Of a DNA stretch of 38,211 nt, positions 2,059 through 33,269 are shown piece after piece. Source of the DNA: Gemmatimonadota bacterium (lineage in GTDB: Bacteria; Gemmatimonadota; Gemmatimonadetes; Gemmatimonadales; GWC2-71-9). Position numbers and translations under genes: made by a program. The notes under the pieces are model-generated. The model saw nothing but the letters and a program-made list of their open reading frames with translations, had not been told where the DNA came from and made no database searches. The stretch spans positions 1 to 38,211 of the forward strand of contig JAHECN010000009.1 in the NCBI GenBank assembly GCA_024641735.1, in the 5' to 3' direction. Each line of letters opens with the position of its first letter. The stretch's first letter is position 1.

Positions 2059-3407
2059 CGGGGCTCCACCACAAAGGTCGGAATGGTTGATCCACTGCCG
2101 GCGGTGACATTCACGAGGGCGGAGGTCGAAATCCGTGTGAGACAGCCATCCATCCAGGCACCGTGCCAACAGAAGGGCGCCGTATCCACAATGCGATCGT
2201 CCACGAGCAGGCCGCCCTGGTGCAGCACCGGGAACGGTTCCTTCGGCAACGCGATGCGGCGCTGCACGATGTAGGGCTCGGCAAGGGCGCGTGCCACACC
2301 GACTTCCCAGGTCGCGTCATCCACTTCCCACCCAAGCACGATCCCCGCACCGCCGTAGTCATCGTTCGGCTTGAGGACGAGGGTCTCGCGCTCCGTCAGG
2401 ATCCACGGGATCAGGTCCCGTTCGATCCCATCTGCCAAGGTGCGGCGCTCCTCGACCACCCGCGTCCAGGGGACGTGGGTGGCGATGGCCAGCTGTTCTG
2501 CCGGGCTGAACCGATCTGCATTCCGTTCATCCGAGAGCACAGCGAGCGAGGCCTTCTTGTGGAGCGGCTTGCAGGCCGCAGGATTCACCATGCAGACGGC
2601 TCCATCCGCGACCGCTCGCAGCATCGGGTGCTCGAGCCCGCCCGCTGCGACGAGCTCGTGGAGGAGCACGCGCTTGTAGATCAGGTCGATCACCGTGCCA
2701 TCGTGGTCCCGCAGCACGCCACCTTCATAGCGCAGGGCGTCCGGTGTCGTGATGCGGCACGGCACGCCCATGCCCTTGAGATAGTGCTGACAGAGCACGA
2801 ATTCCGATTGTGTGGGGACGTCGGCCCAATCAACAATCGCAATGCTCGGCGTCGTGCGGACACCGCGGAAGCGATGCCAACTCTCGAGCAAGATGTTGTG
2901 CAGGTGCCCGAGGCCGGGGAGTGGGCGGACGACCCAGTCCTCACTGAACGGACGCATGGCCGGAAGCGCGAGGAAGAGTTCCGTGAGTGCATCGGTGTAG
3001 CCGGTGCCAGCCGGAGTCTCACCATTGTATTCGGTGATGCGCGCCACGCCATCGGTGGGGTCGATGAAGGCATCGAGCCGTGACAAGGGGGAGTCCACGT
3101 GGAGCGCCGGGGCCGTGTCCAGCAGCGTCTCTTCCCATGGCGCGAGCCGGAATTGTTCCCGGAAGGTTCGGTCCCGGCGGGCGGCCTCGCCCGCAGTACG
3201 GAAGGCGCCGAGCAGGCCTTCCGTCGCGCGACGGAGCCCGTCGTATTCTGCTGGCGAAAAGAAGCGGGGGCGAATCACCGAACAGAGCGGGCGGTCCCCG
3301 AACGTGATGCCGCACTCCTGCTGACGGGCGCCGAGCCACTCGCCGGATTCGCGGGCGAGGGCATCGTCGAGACCATCAATCCATGCCGCGACCGCCCGAT
3401 GGCTCAT
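2055..3407 (-). CDS. Circularly permuted ATP-grasp ligase-like protein
   Basis: A 450-residue soluble protein that looks like the circularly permuted ATP-grasp group (the glutathionylspermidine-synthetase-like / CP-ATP-grasp families). Residues 126-137 (EYNGETPAGTGY) form the acidic/Asn metal-binding segment normally found late in ATP-grasp proteins, while the ATP-binding lysine and glycine-rich loop, LKPNDDYGGAGIV with Lys346 and GGAG at 352-355, come afterwards; this order is the reason for calling a permutation. Other conserved-looking patches are DLIYKRVLLHE (241-251) and MVNPAACKPLHKK (273-285). ATG at 3407 is chosen for its ATGA overlap with the preceding gene. Such enzymes usually form an acyl-phosphate and then an amide bond. 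The acceptor is unknown, and assignment to one exact family is less certain than the fold. Confidence 0.78.
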   Translation of the reverse strand: MSHRAVAAWIDGLDDALARESGEWLGARQQECGITFGDRPLCSVIRPRFFSPAEYDGLRRATEGLLGAFRTAGEAARRDRTFREQFRLAPWEETLLDTAPALHVDSPLSRLDAFIDPTDGVARITEYNGETPAGTGYTDALTELFLALPAMRPFSEDWVVRPLPGLGHLHNILLESWHRFRGVRTTPSIAIVDWADVPTQSEFVLCQHYLKGMGVPCRITTPDALRYEGGVLRDHDGTVIDLIYKRVLLHELVAAGGLEHPMLRAVADGAVCMVNPAACKPLHKKASLAVLSDERNADRFSPAEQLAIATHVPWTRVVEERRTLADGIERDLIPWILTERETLVLKPNDDYGGAGIVLGWEVDDATWEVGVARALAEPYIVQRRIALPKEPFPVLHQGGLLVDDRIVDTAPFCWHGAWMDGCLTRISTSALVNVTAGSGSTIPTFVVEPR

Positions 3408-4357
3408 GCGCTGCGCCCATGCCCGGCAAAGAGATGCTTCGACTTCGGCTTGGGCGGCGTCCGCTCCTCGAGCGCCAGCGCGATGGTGACGTCGGCCATC
3501 GTCTGGACGGCCCACTCAAAGAACGTCGGTCCCAGCGAGTTGATGTCGAAGTCCGGGGCAGGGTTCATGAAGTCGATCGCGTATGGAACGCCGTCCCGAA
3601 TCGCGAATTCGAGTGAGTTCATGTCGTAGCTGAGCGCGCGACAGAGCTTGCGCGCCTGCGTCACGATCAACTCCTTCATTTCCGGATCGAGGAACTCTCC
3701 CTCGTGATACTTCCGTTCCTTGGGGTCGTACTTGATCGGCATGACATGCTCGCGGCCGATGCAAATGCAGCGCACGAACTCATCCCACTCAATGAACTCC
3801 TGCACGATCATCGTCAGCAACCCGCAACGATCGTAGTGGTGCAACAGCTCGTCCAGCGTATGGCAGACATAGACGTCCCGCCAGCCGCCTCCATGCGCGT
3901 CCTTCAGGATGCACGGCAACCCGATGTGCTGGATCACGGCCTGCCAGTCCAGCGGATACTCGAGGTTGCGGAGCGATTCGTCGTGCTTGATCCCGGGGAT
4001 GTAATCCTTGTTGGGGAGCACGATCGTCTTCGGCGAAGCGATCCCGTTCGCCTCGGCGAGGGTGGCACCGAAGAACTTGTCGTCGGCGGTCCACATGAAC
4101 GGGTTGTTGATCACCTTCACGCCGCGCACGGCCGCATGCTTCAGCCACGTCCGATAGAACGGGACTTCATGGGAAATGCGGTCGACGACCACATCCCAGG
4201 GGATGTCATCGTTCAGGGTTGGGGCCCCAAGGTGGACGAACTCGGCAACCACGCCGGCGTTGCGCCGATTGACCTCCTCGATGAACGCCGGGGGCCAAGA
4301 CCATTCACGGCCCACCAGAAGGCCGATGCGCTTTGGGGTCTGCTTCTGTTTGCTCAT
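3404..4357 (-). CDS. RimK-like ATP-grasp ligase
   Basis: A 317-residue ATP-grasp protein. The N-terminal domain begins RIGLLVGREWSWPP; the ATP-grasp domain covers roughly residues 90-290, with lysine 152 and the glycine loop in ILKDAHGGGWRDV, the hinge strand IVQEFIEWDEFVR (184-196), and the metal-binding acidic set Glu250, Asp262 and Asn265 in SLEFAIRDGVPYAIDFMNPAPD. These are the residues expected of a D-Ala-D-Ala ligase/RimK-type carboxylate-amine ligase. ATG at 4357 is preferred to upstream in-frame codons because a GAGGA ribosome-binding site lies just before it, running into the esterase stop 7 bases away. The 3' end overlaps the permuted ATP-grasp gene (ATGA). Two ATP-grasp ligases of different topology in one operon point to two successive amide-forming steps; the substrates cannot be read from sequence. 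Confidence 0.88.
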   Translation of the reverse strand: MSKQKQTPKRIGLLVGREWSWPPAFIEEVNRRNAGVVAEFVHLGAPTLNDDIPWDVVVDRISHEVPFYRTWLKHAAVRGVKVINNPFMWTADDKFFGATLAEANGIASPKTIVLPNKDYIPGIKHDESLRNLEYPLDWQAVIQHIGLPCILKDAHGGGWRDVYVCHTLDELLHHYDRCGLLTMIVQEFIEWDEFVRCICIGREHVMPIKYDPKERKYHEGEFLDPEMKELIVTQARKLCRALSYDMNSLEFAIRDGVPYAIDFMNPAPDFDINSLGPTFFEWAVQTMADVTIALALEERTPPKPKSKHLFAGHGRSA

Positions 4358-27875: not shown

Positions 27876-28355
27876 CTAATCTCGCCCGCTCGCTCCGGCG
27901 AGCAAGGGGAGGGCATCCTGAATGGCGAGGACGCGCGCCGGCAACTCCGGATCGTATCGGTGGGAAAGGGTCGGGTCAGCGAGGAGCCGCGTGGCGGTGG
28001 CCAAGTCGCGCCGACAGGCAGGATCGTCGTCGGGAAAGGGGAGCGGTGCTGAGCCGGTCACGAACGGATCAATGCGATCCATCACCCGAGTGAGCTGGAC
28101 GTACCGGAGTGCGGTCCAGGCGCCTGCGACCTGAAAGGCAACGGCCATCAGGATCGCTCCGCCGTAGGTTGTCTGGCGGGAATGCCCGGAGATCATGATC
28201 GCAAGACCAATCGGAGCGACCAGGAGGGGTCCGAGGATGCGCCGCGACAGGAACCCGCGCCAGCCCCCGACGGCGCGGACGGCAAAGAAGCCGAACACCA
28301 CGATGATGAGGAGCGATGGAATGGCGCTCAGGATGTCCTTCAGGTTTTCACTCAT
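27876..28355 (-). CDS. Small membrane protein of unknown function
   Basis: A 159-residue protein with three likely membrane segments (about residues 10-29, 40-57 and 64-82) followed by a soluble C-terminal part of about 75 residues. The tail reads VMDRIDPFVTGSAPLPFPDDDPACRRDLATATRLLADP, and I find no known motif. A much longer open frame continues upstream, but it is antiparallel-free noise inside the transporter gene: ATG at 28355 overlaps the transporter stop (ATGA), which is the usual junction here. It may be an accessory to the transporter, inferred only from coupling. Confidence 0.72.
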   Translation of the reverse strand: MSENLKDILSAIPSLLIIVVFGFFAVRAVGGWRGFLSRRILGPLLVAPIGLAIMISGHSRQTTYGGAILMAVAFQVAGAWTALRYVQLTRVMDRIDPFVTGSAPLPFPDDDPACRRDLATATRLLADPTLSHRYDPELPARVLAIQDALPLLAGASGRD

Positions 28356-29569
28356 GCATGCCGCGTGGCTGTGGGTGTGCGTCCGGCGAGTGCCGCCGCG
28401 CTTGCATACCCCATCACATTGATTGGGGTCTTGAACATGTCCGGGATCAGGTCGATGGCGATCAGGATGCCGAGCCCTTCGGCGGGGAGTCCGATCGCGA
28501 GGTAGAGCGGCGCTTGCACGAGGAAGCCACCGCTCGGGATGCCCGGCGTGGTGAGGGAGAGCAGGACGGTACCGACGCCGAAGGTCGCCCACTGCGCAGC
28601 CGAGACATCCACGCCGTAGAGGGCCGCCACGAATACGGCCCCGAGGGCCCAGGTGATGGCGGCGTTGAACTTGAAGATCGACGCGGCCAACGGGACGACC
28701 ACGCCAATCACCGGTTCGGGCGTCTTCAGTTCTTCCCGTAATCCGGTAATCAGCGCAGGAAGTGCCGCGAGCGAGGAGCGCGACGAAATGCCGATGACCA
28801 GTGCCGGCGAGATGGCACTGACGAGTGCGCGCGGGGAGGTACGACTGAGTGTGGCGGTGATCACGAGGAGCAGGACGCCGGCCACCACAATCGACAGCGA
28901 CACCACGATCAGGTATCGTGCGACCGCCGCCGCCGCCGGTACTCCGACGCGCGCGCCCAGGGCAAAGGCCAGAGCGAAGACACCGATCGGCGCCAGAGCG
29001 AGGACCCACCGGATCATCACCATCAGGACATCTGCGATCCCCTGCGCAGCGTCGCCTTGGTGGCGGCGCACGCTTTCCGGAAGCCGCGTGAGTGCCATGC
29101 CGTACAGCAGCGAGAAGACCACCAGCGGGAGGAGCGCACCCTCGGCCGCCGCACCAATCGGATTGGTCGGGATCAACGAGAGGAGCCATCCCGAGAGTGA
29201 CAATTGCGTCGCGCTGTCGCTGGTGACCGCGGCCGATGCCCGGAGCGCCTCACTGGCGGACGGGTCGAGCGGGAGTCCACTCAGAAGCATCGGTGCCAAG
29301 AGCGTCATGGTGGCAGTGAACGGAATCAACAGCGCGAGGAAGATCAGGACCGCTCGCCCGGTGAGCGATCCCGCCTCCCGCGTGTCTCGTGCCTTGGCAA
29401 TCCCCGAGATCGTCAACGCAACGATCAAGGGGAGGATGGGCATGCGGAGCGCATTGATCCAGAGCGTCCCGAGCGGCTCGATGGCGGAGAGAACCCCGTC
29501 GTGCCCGATCCCGATGCCGGCACCGAGTCCGATGCCGAACGCCAGGAAGACTTGGAGCGCGGGGTTCAT
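28352..29569 (-). CDS. DAACS-family transporter with altered sodium-site residues
   Basis: A 405-residue inner-membrane protein of the dicarboxylate/amino acid:cation symporter (GltPh/EAAT) fold. Eight membrane segments and both re-entrant hairpins are recognisable: HP1 with SSRSSLAALPALI, HP2 with SLTTPGIPSGGFL, and the TM8 motif DLIPDMFKTPINVMGY. Compared by eye with archaeal GltPh, the TM7 NMDGT motif, which holds sodium-site Asp312, reads FKFNA here; Asp405 of TM8 is Tyr; Arg397, which binds the substrate side-chain carboxylate, is Lys. Asp390, Asp394 and Asn401 equivalents are kept. Substrate and coupling ion are therefore uncertain. ATG at 29569 gives a normal N-terminus (MNPALQVFLAFGIGLGAG) and lies 4 bases after the FKBP stop. 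Confidence 0.88.
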   Translation of the reverse strand: MNPALQVFLAFGIGLGAGIGIGHDGVLSAIEPLGTLWINALRMPILPLIVALTISGIAKARDTREAGSLTGRAVLIFLALLIPFTATMTLLAPMLLSGLPLDPSASEALRASAAVTSDSATQLSLSGWLLSLIPTNPIGAAAEGALLPLVVFSLLYGMALTRLPESVRRHQGDAAQGIADVLMVMIRWVLALAPIGVFALAFALGARVGVPAAAAVARYLIVVSLSIVVAGVLLLVITATLSRTSPRALVSAISPALVIGISSRSSLAALPALITGLREELKTPEPVIGVVVPLAASIFKFNAAITWALGAVFVAALYGVDVSAAQWATFGVGTVLLSLTTPGIPSGGFLVQAPLYLAIGLPAEGLGILIAIDLIPDMFKTPINVMGYASAAALAGRTPTATRHA

Positions 29570-29573
29570 GTGG

Positions 29574-30047
29574 TCAGGATGCCGAGAGCACGGTGACGGT
29601 AAAGACCAGCACGGAGCCGCCGGGAATCGGGCCGTAATTGTTGGCGCCATACGCCAGTGCGGAAGGGATGATCAGCTGGCGCACGCCGCCGATCTTCATT
29701 CCGGCGACTCCGAGATCCCACCCTCGGATGACCTGTCCGCCGTCCAGGCGAAAGGCGAACGGCGAACCGTTGGCATTGGAGTCGAATTGTGCGCCGTTGC
29801 TGAGCCATCCCGTGTAGCGCACCGAGACACTCTGCCCCGACGCCACCATCGCACCGGTCCCCACTGTGATGTCGCGGACATACATCCCGCTCGGCAGTTT
29901 GGTGGATGAGGCCAGGTTGACGTCGAGGGCAGGGGCAAAGGTGGTGGTCTCGATCACTTGGGGCTCCGGGGTCGTGGCGCCCGTTGAGGAACAGGCGGTG
30001 GTGGCGAGCAGCAGCAGGAGTGCGGAGAGGCGGAATCGTGGTGCCAT
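29574..30047 (-). CDS. FKBP-type peptidyl-prolyl isomerase lipoprotein
   Basis: A 157-residue exported FKBP. The N-terminus (MAPRFRLSALLLLLATTAC) looks like a lipoprotein signal with Cys19 as lipidation site, although the -3 residue is Thr, a weak lipobox. The FKBP domain covers the last about 100 residues and has the full signature: VSVRYTGWLSNGAQFDSN, FRLDGGQVIRGWDLGVAGMKIGG with the active-site Trp, RQLIIPSALAYGANN and the closing strand VLVFTVTVLS. It would catalyse proline isomerisation and help fold exported proteins in the periplasm. ATG at 30047 is chosen for the signal peptide. It sits between the permuted-papain protein and the transporter on the same strand. Confidence 0.92.
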   Translation of the reverse strand: MAPRFRLSALLLLLATTACSSTGATTPEPQVIETTTFAPALDVNLASSTKLPSGMYVRDITVGTGAMVASGQSVSVRYTGWLSNGAQFDSNANGSPFAFRLDGGQVIRGWDLGVAGMKIGGVRQLIIPSALAYGANNYGPIPGGSVLVFTVTVLSAS

Positions 30048-30066
30048 GGTGTTGTCTCTGGGGGTG

Positions 30067-30081
30067 GGGAAAGGTTTTCCC
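30067..30081 (-). other. Short hairpin ahead of the FKBP gene
   Basis: On the minus strand GGGAAA-ACC-TTTCCC forms a 6-pair stem about 20 bases before the FKBP ATG, preceded by a TATTTT box that could be a -10. It may mark a second promoter or a weak processing site inside the operon; there is no T-run after it. Confidence 0.35.
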
Positions 30082-30093
30082 AAAATACCCCGT

Positions 30094-30864
30094 TCACTCG
30101 GTGAGCGGGTCGGCGATGAGTCGGATGCGATGGGGATCGAAGCCTTGGGTCAGTGTCGGCTTGATGATCGCAAAATAGGGTGAGACGTCGAAGTCACGCG
30201 GGGTGAACAGCGAGTGGTGGCGGATGTGGAGGGCCTCTTGGTAGTCGGCCGACGCGTCCGGGTCGACCGGTGGAAGAAGCCGCGCGGTCGGCAGGATGGG
30301 GTACCCGACGTTCTGGTAGGCCTCGGCGAGGAGGGCCGAGCAGATGGCGCGGGTCGGATCGCCACTCCCGAGGGCGAGCAAGCGCCGGCGAAAGCGAGCC
30401 GGCACCGGTGGCGTCGGCCAGAGATACCGCGCCAAGTCCCAAATGTGCTTGACGTCATAGCGGTATCCCACGCGGGCCACAGTGAACTGGATGACGCGGT
30501 TGATTTCCGCTGGCGTCAGGCCGACGGGTCGACAGATCCGGGTGTGCAGCGATGCGTATTTGGAGAGCGGGACCAGTTGCACGCCATGGGAGAGGTCGGC
30601 CTCCAACAGGACGACGGGTTCGTGTGCTTCGTCGGCGAGTGGGTCCGGGGTGGCGATGCACAAGGCGGCGTGCGACCACGTCGACTGCGTCAGATACTTG
30701 ATGGCCACCGAGATGCGCGAGCTGCCTTCCACCAAGAGCACGTCGCCCGGTTGGAGCGCGCGTGCCAGCGTGGCCGGCTGGCTGGTGGTGAAATGGACGC
30801 GGTCATGCCGGGGCTTGCTGAGAAAGCGGGCGAGCCGCTGTCCGATCCCATCGAGTACGATCAC
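30094..30864 (-). CDS. Permuted papain-fold (YiiX/YaeF-like) cysteine peptidase or hydrolase
   Basis: A 256-residue protein with the pattern of the circularly permuted papain-like fold of YiiX/YaeF and NlpC-related proteins. The segment PGDVLLVEGSSRISVAIKYL leads to His65 in STWSHAALCI; an acidic residue, Glu88 in LLEADLSHGV, follows; the putative nucleophile Cys175 comes late in RAICSALLAEAYQNVGYP. This His-before-Cys order defines the permutation. No signal peptide or lipobox is visible. Family members are thought to cleave peptidoglycan peptides, lipids or amide bonds, mostly unproven. The start is GTG, overlapping the stop of the histidine kinase (GTGA), so it is translationally coupled to the sensor and may be part of, or an output of, the same pathway. 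Confidence 0.8.
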   Translation of the reverse strand: MIVLDGIGQRLARFLSKPRHDRVHFTTSQPATLARALQPGDVLLVEGSSRISVAIKYLTQSTWSHAALCIATPDPLADEAHEPVVLLEADLSHGVQLVPLSKYASLHTRICRPVGLTPAEINRVIQFTVARVGYRYDVKHIWDLARYLWPTPPVPARFRRRLLALGSGDPTRAICSALLAEAYQNVGYPILPTARLLPPVDPDASADYQEALHIRHHSLFTPRDFDVSPYFAIIKPTLTQGFDPHRIRLIADPLTE

Positions 30865-33179
30865 TGGAGGACGGGTGCGGGACGACGGATTACGCGATCC
30901 ACCGTACGGACCAGGTCTTCCATGCTGTACGGTTTGGACAGGAAGTCGGTGACGCCGACTGTGGCGGCGGTGGTGCTCATGCCCGCATCTCCCATCCCGC
31001 TCACCGCAATCAGCCGCACGTCGGGGGCGATCTTCCGCAGCGCGGTGATCGTCGCGACGCCATCCATCACCGGCATCATCATGTCGGTGACCACCAGCGT
31101 GATCGTGTCGGCACGGTGGCTGAATTGTGCCACGGCATCCGCGCCATCCTCGGCGGTGATGACCTGATACCCGAAAGTCTCGAGGGTCTGCCGGGTGATC
31201 ATGCGGATCGCGGCCTCGTCGTCCACCACGAGCACGGTCTCTCCGTTGCCGCGTGGCAGTGTGCTCTGGCTGGCGGCGGGGACTCTGGCGCTCTCACCCT
31301 CGAGGGCAGGAAAGTAGATCTCGAAGGTGCTCCCCGTGCCTACGTCGCTGGACAGCGCGATGCGGCCACGATGACTGTGGACCACGGCCTGTGCGGTGGC
31401 GAGCCCGAGCCCAGTGCCCTTCCCGAGTTCCTTGGTGGTGAAGAACGGGTCGAAGATCCGGTCCCGGATGGCGGCGGGAATGCCGGTCCCGGTGTCCGCG
31501 ACGGTGAGCACGACATGGCGTCCGGGCATCAGGCCATGCATGGCCGCCTCGTCCGCCGTGACCATCCGATTGCTGGCCCCGAGGCGCAACGCACCACCGG
31601 CCGGCATCGCGTCGCGCGCATTGACGGCCAGGTTGAGAATCACTTGGTGGATCTGGGTGGCATCGGCCAGAATGGGCCAGATCCCTTCCGGGAAATCGCC
31701 GATCACCGTGAGCCGACGATCGAATGTTCCGCGGGCCAACTTGGCGACTTCCTGCATCACGCGATTCGGCTCGACGCGGGCGCGCACCCCCTCCAACCCT
31801 CGGGTGAAGGAGAGGATGTGACGCACCAACTCTGCGCCGTGCCGCGCACTGCCCTCGATGGTGTCGAGCACCTCGCGATCACCCTCTGCCTGCTCATTCA
31901 ATTTGAGAATTTCAACGGCCATGAGGATTGGTGCCAGGACGTTGTTCAAGTCGTGCGCGATTCCGCCCGCCAAGGTGCCGATGCTCTCCATGCGCTGCGC
32001 CCGCAGCTGCTGGGATTCGAACTTGCGGCGCTCCGTCACGTCATGGACGAGCACCAATCGGGCGGACCGTCCACCGAAGTCGATCGCGTTCGACACGATC
32101 TCCACCTCGAGATGTTGCCCCGCTTTGGTGCGGTGCCGCCAAGTGACGGGTTGTGTGGTGCGGTCGCGGAACGTGGCCAGATGGGCCGCCAGCGCCGAAA
32201 GATCCTCGGGGGGGCGGATGTCGTAGAGCGTCATGGCGAGGAACTCTTCCTCGGTCCACCCATACCGCGCGACAGCGGTTTCATTGACCGCGAGGAAGCG
32301 ATAGCTCTCGGTGTCGTACACCCACATCGCGTGCGGGTTGTGCTGGAAGAGCAGGCGGTACCCTGCTTCGGACTCGCTCAGCCGTTCTTCCGCGGCGCGG
32401 AGTGACGTGATGTCACGACCGATCCCGACCGTTCGACGCGCCGTCCCGTCCGGACCAAGGACAGGAAACGTCCGGATCTCGACCCAACGGGTCGGATGCT
32501 CTGGCCGCACCAAACGATAGGACATGTTGACCCGATACGGGTCGCGCGCGAGCGCGGCACGGAGCGCGATCTGGTCGTCCGGGTGGATCCACCGCATGTA
32601 GGCATCCGGATCGCGATAGAGCTCCTCCACCGAATGCCCGAACATCGCTTCGTAGTTGGGAGAGGCATACAGGATGCGGTCGTTGACCACATCCCGACTC
32701 CAGAACACATCCGAAATGCTCTCCGCGAGTTCCCGCAGACGGCGCTCGCTCTCCGCCAGCGCCATCTCGGTCTCGGTCCGGTGGGTCGCGTCCCGGCATC
32801 GCACGCGCACCAAGGTCTCGCCGTCCGACTGCACCGTGCTCGCGGTCACGTCCACGAAGAAGATGCGCCCCTTCCGGCTGACCATCCGCTGGGTCGTCTG
32901 GGGAAGGCGTCCGGGGGACGCGACCAACTGGGCGATCGCCTCGGTGATGAAGGCTTGGCATTCCGGGTGGAAGAGCGTGGCGGGGCTCTGCCCCACCAAC
33001 TGATTCTCATCCGTTGCGTCCAGCAGCGTCAGGCCAGCAGGGTTGATGAATCGGATCACGCCATGCTGGACGACGAGGATGCAGTCGTCCGCCTGCTCGA
33101 CAAGGTGCCGGAAGGTGGTGTCGTCGAGCGCTGCGCGCGTTGACGGGTGGGGCAGGAGTGAATCGGGTCGATCGGTCAT
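30861..33179 (-). CDS. Hybrid sensor histidine kinase with three PAS domains and a receiver
   Basis: A 772-residue, apparently soluble hybrid kinase without transmembrane segments. In order: PAS 1 (about 20-130), PAS 2 with PAC (about 145-265), PAS 3 (about 270-385), HisKA with phosphoacceptor His409 in GGIAHDLNN, HATPase with Asn521 in [11 protein letters not shown] and the G boxes ADTGTGIP and [11 protein letters not shown], and a C-terminal receiver (about 648-765) with acidic pair DDE, phosphoacceptor Asp699 in VVTDMMMP and Lys in LSKPY. Signals would be cytosolic (ligand, redox or light-like through PAS). No separate DNA-binding output domain or partner regulator lies next to it, so phosphotransfer must end in its receiver or go elsewhere. 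ATG at 33179 follows AGGGG; an upstream TTG is less likely. Confidence 0.94.
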
Positions 33180-33269
33180 CAATGCCCCTGAAATGGTGCG
33201 GTCACGGGCCAAATGTAGGTAAAGGTGCCAGTGGATAGGGAGGGGTATCGGAGGAAGCCGCCGAACGGT

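Follow-up and report, generated by a model that had tools for sequence, protein, structure and literature searches.

The 405-residue protein encoded on the reverse strand at positions 28352-29569 of the window, by which the whole analysed stretch of 38,211 nucleotides from a Gemmatimonadota bacterium is meant, is predicted to be a Na+-independent amino-acid carrier of the SLC1 family in which a basic side chain at position 311 (numbering of GltPh) would permanently replace the sodium ion at Na2. This prediction of function and coupling draws on sequence comparison and on analogy with other carriers, and is held with moderate confidence; that the query has lost sodium coupling is strongly indicated. 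The glutamate-transporter family is the textbook example of sodium coupling, and the query is a bacterial relative of the brain glutamate transporters. The clade with Arg or Lys at 311 to which it belongs is a natural test of whether a fixed charge can substitute for bound Na+ and, if the proposal is true, would represent a third route away from Na+, beside proton coupling and allosteric uncoupling. The relevant features of the window, all on the reverse strand, are the following.

28352-29569, reverse strand: DAACS/SLC1 (Pfam SDF) transporter of 405 amino acids, predicted Na+-independent (open reading frame, Pfam, model, structure superposition)
28661-28675, reverse strand: FKFNA codons, the TM7 break, replacing NMDGT (GltPh 310-314; alignment, model)
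28670-28672, reverse strand: AAG codon of Lys300, equivalent of GltPh Met311 and proposed Na2 surrogate (alignment)
28406-28408, reverse strand: codon of Tyr388, equivalent of GltPh Asp405; Na1 ligand lost (alignment)
28430-28441, reverse strand: codons of Asp377 to Lys380, equivalents of GltPh D394 (kept) to R397 (Lys here; alignment)
29327-29332, reverse strand: codons of Leu80-Leu81, equivalents of GltPh T92-S93; Na3 ligands lost (alignment)
27876-28355, reverse strand: small membrane protein P0002, 159 amino acids, orphan (no Pfam match above cut-off)
29574-30083, reverse strand: FKBP-type peptidyl-prolyl isomerase (FKBP_C, E 2.2e-27)

The protein matches the Pfam SDF profile (PF00375) from position 4 to 384 of 387 (3.5e-75; 253.9 bits against a curated cut-off of 27.9), and this full-length match, together with the SLC1 fold of its predicted structure, assigns it to the DAACS/SLC1 family. 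Scores with the NCBIfam models were below the curated cut-offs for GltP (138.1 vs 638), DctA (121.5 vs 513 and 101.7 vs 570) and SstT (59.7 vs 308), and eight relatives likewise remained below the GltP, DctA and SstT cut-offs, so that none of these nine proteins is covered by an NCBIfam model. The solved structures matched by a profile of the clade are those of GltPh, GltTk, an ancestral transporter, EAATs and ASCTs. Two further SDF genes, reading NMNGT with D405 and NLDGS with N405, are present in the genome from which the window originates, giving three in total.

In the alignment of the query to GltPh, positions 89, 92, 93, 276 and 279 correspond to F77, L80, L81, R264 and L267, the TM7 positions 310 to 314 to F299, K300, F301, N302 and A303, and positions 390, 394, 397, 398, 401 and 405 to D373, D377, K380, T381, N384 and Y388. 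Around FKFNA the alignment is free of gaps, and it is anchored by relatives reading LGASINRSGSALF, in which N310, G313 and S314 still stand beside R311. An AlphaFold model of the query (monomer, 60-sequence alignment; pLDDT 88.2, pTM 0.85) has its TM7 helix break at residues 299-302, which are FKFN, and it superimposes on GltPh (6x15) with a Z of 40.5 over 389 residues (rmsd 2.8) and on ASCT2 (8oui) with a Z of 41.1 over 380 residues (rmsd 2.4). Alignment, position of the break and superpositions together therefore make the register sound. An NMDGT motif or an Asp405 equivalent elsewhere in the chain, named in the initial annotation as what would refute the observation, hence does not occur.

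With this register, the substitutions described in the initial annotation were recovered: FKFNA stands in place of NMDGT, with Phe as the equivalent of Asp312 and a Lys beside it, Tyr is found for Asp405 and Lys for Arg397, and Asp390, Asp394, Thr398 and Asn401 are retained. Not included there were the additional losses of T92 and S93, and the telling change besides the loss of the aspartates is that of Met311 to Lys. All five side-chain positions which we take to form Na3 in the GltPh structures (89, 92, 93, 310 and 312) are altered in the query, where Y89 is Phe and the site has become hydrophobic by T92L, S93L, N310F and D312F. In addition, S279 is replaced by Leu and the Na1 carboxylate is gone (D405Y). 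The signature of Na+-coupled SLC1 members, consisting of NMDGT with Met311 and Asp312, Asp405, T/S92 and S/T93, is hence not present in the query, which has FKFNA, Y405, L92 and L93. With the archaeal Na+/aspartate symporters GltPh and GltTk (SLC1/DAACS, TCDB 2.A.23) the query thus shares the whole-chain fold, D394, T398, N401 and the TM7 break, but it differs from them at these sites and at R397, and overall identity is about 25%.

The subfamily survey proposed in the initial annotation revealed that the substitutions characterize a whole clade. A single-protein search of genome contigs with the query yielded nothing. Bacterial and archaeal species genomes were scanned by alignment, with peptide patterns that did not include position 311 and seed sequences that did carry a basic residue there. 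This gave 517 confirmed relatives, of which the best 80 were taken. All of these 80 are basic at 311 (K 47, R 31, H 2), and Asp or Asn is absent from 312. A second set of 29 loci (L005-L033) gave the same picture, with a basic residue in 29/29 and no Asp or Asn at 312. The 74 distinct rows among the best 80 of 517 belong to Gemmatimonadota (44), Pseudomonadota (20), Acidobacteriota (4), Bacteroidota (2), Planctomycetota (2), a Methanobacteriota metagenome-assembled genome (1) and one further bacterium; those from Planctomycetota and Methanobacteriota may have been misbinned. Six additional members from Sphingobium and Sphingomonas strains are plasmid-borne and read FR[AG] with E390, R397 and D405.

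For a census of the phylum, intended as a sample with less bias, 147 of 157 Pfam SDF matches in 61 Gemmatimonadota genomes were taken, of which 146 had a hit (L260 had none) and four loci did not cover the motif. About a third of the SDF genes (47/141) have a basic 311 and no D/N312. This number stood at 48 loci before L258, an alignment artefact at a fragment, was removed, and L250 and L256 are probably the two ends of one gene. Five further genes combine K311 with D312 and three K311 with N312.

The clade was defined on a tree of 213 sequences from which columns 308-315, 397, 405, 92 and 93 had been removed, and comprises 141 sequences including the query and the NR[PSAG]G rows. Every one of them is basic at 311 (R70, K68, H3), and D/N at 312 occurs in 0/141. 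Dropping 29 sequences that were at least 80% identical to others, or gappy, left 112, in which 311 is again basic throughout (R57, K53, H2) and Asp312 is found in none. A basic residue at a Na+-ligand position is thereby conserved in 112/112 members of a clade defined without that column, a constancy beyond what chance would give. Among the 72 rows outside the clade, position 311 is M36, L24, K9 and Q3, and position 312 is D53, N18 and A1. Within the 112 members D394 and P356 are invariant, D390 and N401 are kept in 110 each and T398 in 105. Other positions vary: 310 is mostly F89 or N11; 92 is mostly L55, M23 or T18; 405 is D52, H29, N17 and others; 397 is R41, K24, A20, I17, L6 and others. 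Read from the aligned sequences, this is a pattern in which the amino-group ligand and the substrate asparagine stay constant, side-chain specificity differs between members, Asp312 has been lost and 405 is unconstrained, and basic 311 is in this alignment the only fully conserved charge of the clade that Na+-coupled members lack. Among the columns conserved in at least 70% of the 112 rows there is no new acid in the transport core. Arg311 is accompanied by R397 in 40/57 members and Lys311 in 1/53. This pairing hints at a link between 311 and the substrate pocket, with independent pairs being few: for K/R311 against 397 and 405, two were found on supported branches of the tree.

A careful maximum-likelihood tree was calculated from 87 rows including the query, with motif columns removed and the long-branched E. 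coli SstT left out. All 61 rows with basic 311 and without D/N312 are located on one side of a branch (61/61; support 100/100, 100% of bootstraps). The query groups with L005 (59% identity, K397, F405) and L034 (K397, Y405). The NR[PSAG]G forms, which keep N310, R311 and R397, branch near the base of the clade and the F[KR] forms are nested, which on a tree whose root is not determined would point to a change from NR[PSAG]G to F[KR]. Within the clade at least 21 changes were counted for 405 and at least seven for 397, while 311 moved only among basic residues.

To account for basic 311 on the whole tree, at least three changes are required. A tree constrained to unite the 66 basic rows was worse by 20.5 log units (AU p 0.036), by which a single origin is only weakly rejected and a repeated origin of basic 311 is suggested by the sequences. 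Basic 311 is also found in two further SDF clades, NKNG and NKDG. The NKNG/DKNG clade (L214, L215, L216) has N405 and R397 and lies near the NMDG rows in the tree. In the NKDG clade (L168, L169, L170, L171, L173, L186) Lys311 stands beside Asp312 and Asp405, both intact; position 93 is Glu or Asp, 390 is Tyr and 397 is Asn. Here a built-in cation may have arisen independently, in a site of different chemistry. Asn312 with Met or Gln at 311 (NMNG, CMNG, NQNG) and intact D405 occurs in L001, L129, L144, L151, L157, L158, L220 and others; altogether 18 rows outside the clade have Asn312, with Met, Gln or Lys at 311. Given NKDG with intact D312 and Asn312 rows with Met311, basic 311 and the loss of D312 therefore also occur apart from each other. 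A group of divergent SDF matches from several genomes of the same class (L211-L213, L253-L255) covers only profile positions 141-385 and reads NLDASA with S390 and D405; these may form a subfamily of their own in which the N-terminal half is unusual.

In GltTk, Met314 (311 in GltPh) coordinates Na2, and according to PMC8431971 this Met is conserved in all known Na+-coupled SLC1 members and replaced by Leu in proton-coupled ones. The mutants M314C and M314S retain a 3:1 Na+ stoichiometry (PMC8431971), and loss of the Met alone therefore does not abolish Na2. As described in PMC12668577, Na+ binding flips the NMD loop into its substrate-ready state, which the uncoupled AncInt reaches without Na+, and Met311 is in contact with the substrate when GltPh or AncInt is flipped in. 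In the proposed mechanism a lysine in the rotamer of Met311 would carry its amine two bonds further out than the Met sulphur, approximately where Na2 lies, so that the amine of Lys300 (Arg in sister clades) could reach roughly the Na2 position. As a permanent cation surrogate it would keep the TM7 break flipped in, the state brought about in GltPh by Na+ binding, while the hydrophobic residues at 92, 93, 310 and 312 would fill Na3 and the loop would be kept active without ions. Substrate would then be bound via the conserved D394, T398 and N401 with no need for Na+. Carrier movement would be of the elevator type, transport would be exchange or facilitated uptake, and any coupling would be to something other than Na+. 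A fixed charge is likelier than a proton carrier because 311 is Arg as often as it is Lys, and arginine hardly deprotonates. Some members may possess a residual Na1 site, since D405 is kept in 52/112. A more far-reaching and tentative proposal is that SLC1 repeatedly gained a built-in Na2 cation, in the Arg/Lys311 superclade and independently in NKNG and NKDG, and that the superclade consists of obligate exchangers in which the fixed charge both replaces Na+ and enforces coupling by charge compensation.

The initial annotation had offered proton coupling, an uncoupled mode and a positive side chain in place of Na+ as three options. The last of these is best supported, as 311 is basic in 112/112 members while 397 and 405 vary, and an uncoupled exchange mode would be compatible with it. 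Since Met311 touches the substrate when flipped in (PMC12668577), basic 311 could also be a substrate ligand that binds the substrate carboxylate and replaces or supplements R397, with sodium independence as a by-product. The loss of R397 in 52/53 K311 members fits with this idea. However, R311 coexists with R397 in 40/57 members, so that 397 is not simply replaced, and 311 stays basic throughout the clade although 397 shifts from Arg to Ala, Ile or Leu, which implies changed substrates; we regard this explanation as distinctly less probable than a built-in cation. Slightly less probable again is proton symport of a new type, with Lys311 or the retained aspartates as proton carriers. Position 92 is hydrophobic as in the proton-coupled clade, reversible protonation was proposed for Lys158 of ApcT (PMC11782487), and proton-coupled members with other signatures are not excluded by the authors of PMC12668577. 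Coupling of the known type is, however, unsupported: from the ExtH proton-coupling signature given in PMC12668577, the query has the hydrophobic residue at 92 (Leu) but lacks M311L, D405N and S279E, with Lys, Tyr and Leu at these positions. Glu or Asp occupies 279 in 22/22 NLDG rows (the comparison rows being 19 NMDG and 22 NLDG), whereas no acid is among the residues listed there for the 112 clade rows. Arg, a poor proton carrier, is found at 311 in 57/112, the absence of a new conserved core acid likewise speaks against a proton path, and in the tree the clade stays apart from the NLDG rows, a separation with 100/100 support.

The Na1 and Na2 sites are made largely of backbone carbonyls, which would allow a Na+-coupled transporter that keeps one of these sites at reduced stoichiometry. 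Retention of D405 in 52/112 relatives and the dispensability of Met314 for Na2 in GltTk (PMC8431971) are in line with this, but the query has a cationic side chain in place of the Na2 Met, Tyr at D405 and changes in all five Na3 positions, and we consider such a residual coupling improbable. That the protein is a degenerate or non-transporting paralogue, as the loss of sites important in Na+-coupled relatives might suggest, is very improbable, because conservation of D394, T398 and N401 extends over 112 divergent members, the clade is spread over several phyla and a stop was found in only one of the SDF matches listed (all SDF types).

The proposed sodium surrogate can be compared with several known systems. 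The proton-coupled SLC1 members GltP and DctA of E. coli (ExtH clade; Reddy et al., 2025) share the family and the hydrophobic residue at T92 with the query, but lie in a separate clade. The sequence of a solved structure closest to the query is that of the sodium-uncoupled AncInt/ExtInt (PDB 9bh0 and 9bgz, same sequence; Reddy et al., 2025). It binds substrate independently of Na+, as is proposed for the query; however, AncInt has retained all Na+ ligands as well as Met311, and its uncoupling is allosteric, whereas the query lost ligands and gained a charge. LaINDY, a DASS exchanger, is likewise of the elevator type and has basic residues where Na+ would bind: for Arg159 at its Na1 site and His392 at its Na2 site, a role as permanent Na+ surrogates was proposed in PMC7553777. 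It differs in family, fold and its dicarboxylate substrate, and the surrogate role of its basic residues is a structural hypothesis. The authors of that paper state that they had not examined its Na+ dependence, and the analogy is therefore partly inferential. Na+-free transport also goes along with a basic Na2 side chain in ApcT/GkApcT and CaiT, for which Lys191 of GkApcT (PMC5803215) and R262 of CaiT (as cited in PMC11782487) were proposed as surrogates, though these carriers have the unrelated LeuT-type fold. No description of Lys or Arg at 311 in SLC1 was found among the best-ranked open-access papers listed, a scope that does not extend to preprints and most subscription journals; the states of 311 named in PMC8431971 and PMC12668577 are Met for Na+ and Leu for H+. 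While the SLC1 family is known, the basic-311 variant thus appears to be undescribed. Some members carry the labels 'cation:dicarboxylase symporter', 'amino acid:proton symporter' or 'proton/glutamate symporter', and for these it is possible that neither the Na+ nor the H+ mechanism known so far applies.

An amino acid is the most likely substrate, since the amino-group ligand D394 does not vary, and side-chain specificity would differ among subclades since 397 is Arg, Lys, Ala, Ile or Leu. No conserved operon partner was found among 136 neighbour ORFs of 74 loci. These ORFs were picked mechanically by size, distance and GC3, wrong frames included, and their commonest Pfam families were GT2 (8), SDR (7), NUDIX (7), Rieske (7) and Exonuc_VII_L (5). 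A few individual neighbourhoods nevertheless give pointers. In L005, the query's nearest relative, a gene for an M14 zinc carboxypeptidase (2688-4022, reverse strand) overlaps the transporter start, and in L039 a gene for an S9 prolyl oligopeptidase lies beside the transporter. In Sphingobium yanoikuyae (L263; NZ_CP115457.1, 606666-607916) the basic-311 transporter is located downstream of genes for cyanophycin synthetase (cphA), an isoaspartyl peptidase and a cyanophycinase, with two genes in between, and this cyanophycin neighbourhood suggests a link to aspartate or arginine. A gene for an Lrp/AsnC-type regulator adjoins the transporter in two other sphingobia. The peptidase, cyanophycin and regulator neighbours are hints to the substrates of these relatives and no evidence for the query, in which 397 is Lys. 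In the Ala397 subclade (L113, L072, L076, L055, L097, L106, L112) a short-chain dehydrogenase gene is found just upstream on the same strand, as checked with Pfam in L113 and L072.

The ATGA coupling of the transporter to a small membrane protein, also pointed out in the initial annotation, is present: the start of P0002 overlaps the transporter stop at 28352-28355. As a pointer to function, or as a candidate transporter subunit, P0002 did not hold: in 102 genomes of the family it was recovered from its own genome, with a single weak hit besides (E 5e-5, 32% over 80 residues), and in the other loci compared nothing scored better than E 1.5. The FKBP isomerase gene ends four bases before the transporter start, and with this gap and the ATGA overlap the isomerase, the transporter and P0002 are therefore probably on one transcript. 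Further upstream on the strand of the transporter, the window encodes a permuted papain-like C92 amidase (30097-30864, reverse strand) and a hybrid histidine kinase (30864-33212, reverse strand) that contains three PAS stretches and a receiver domain.
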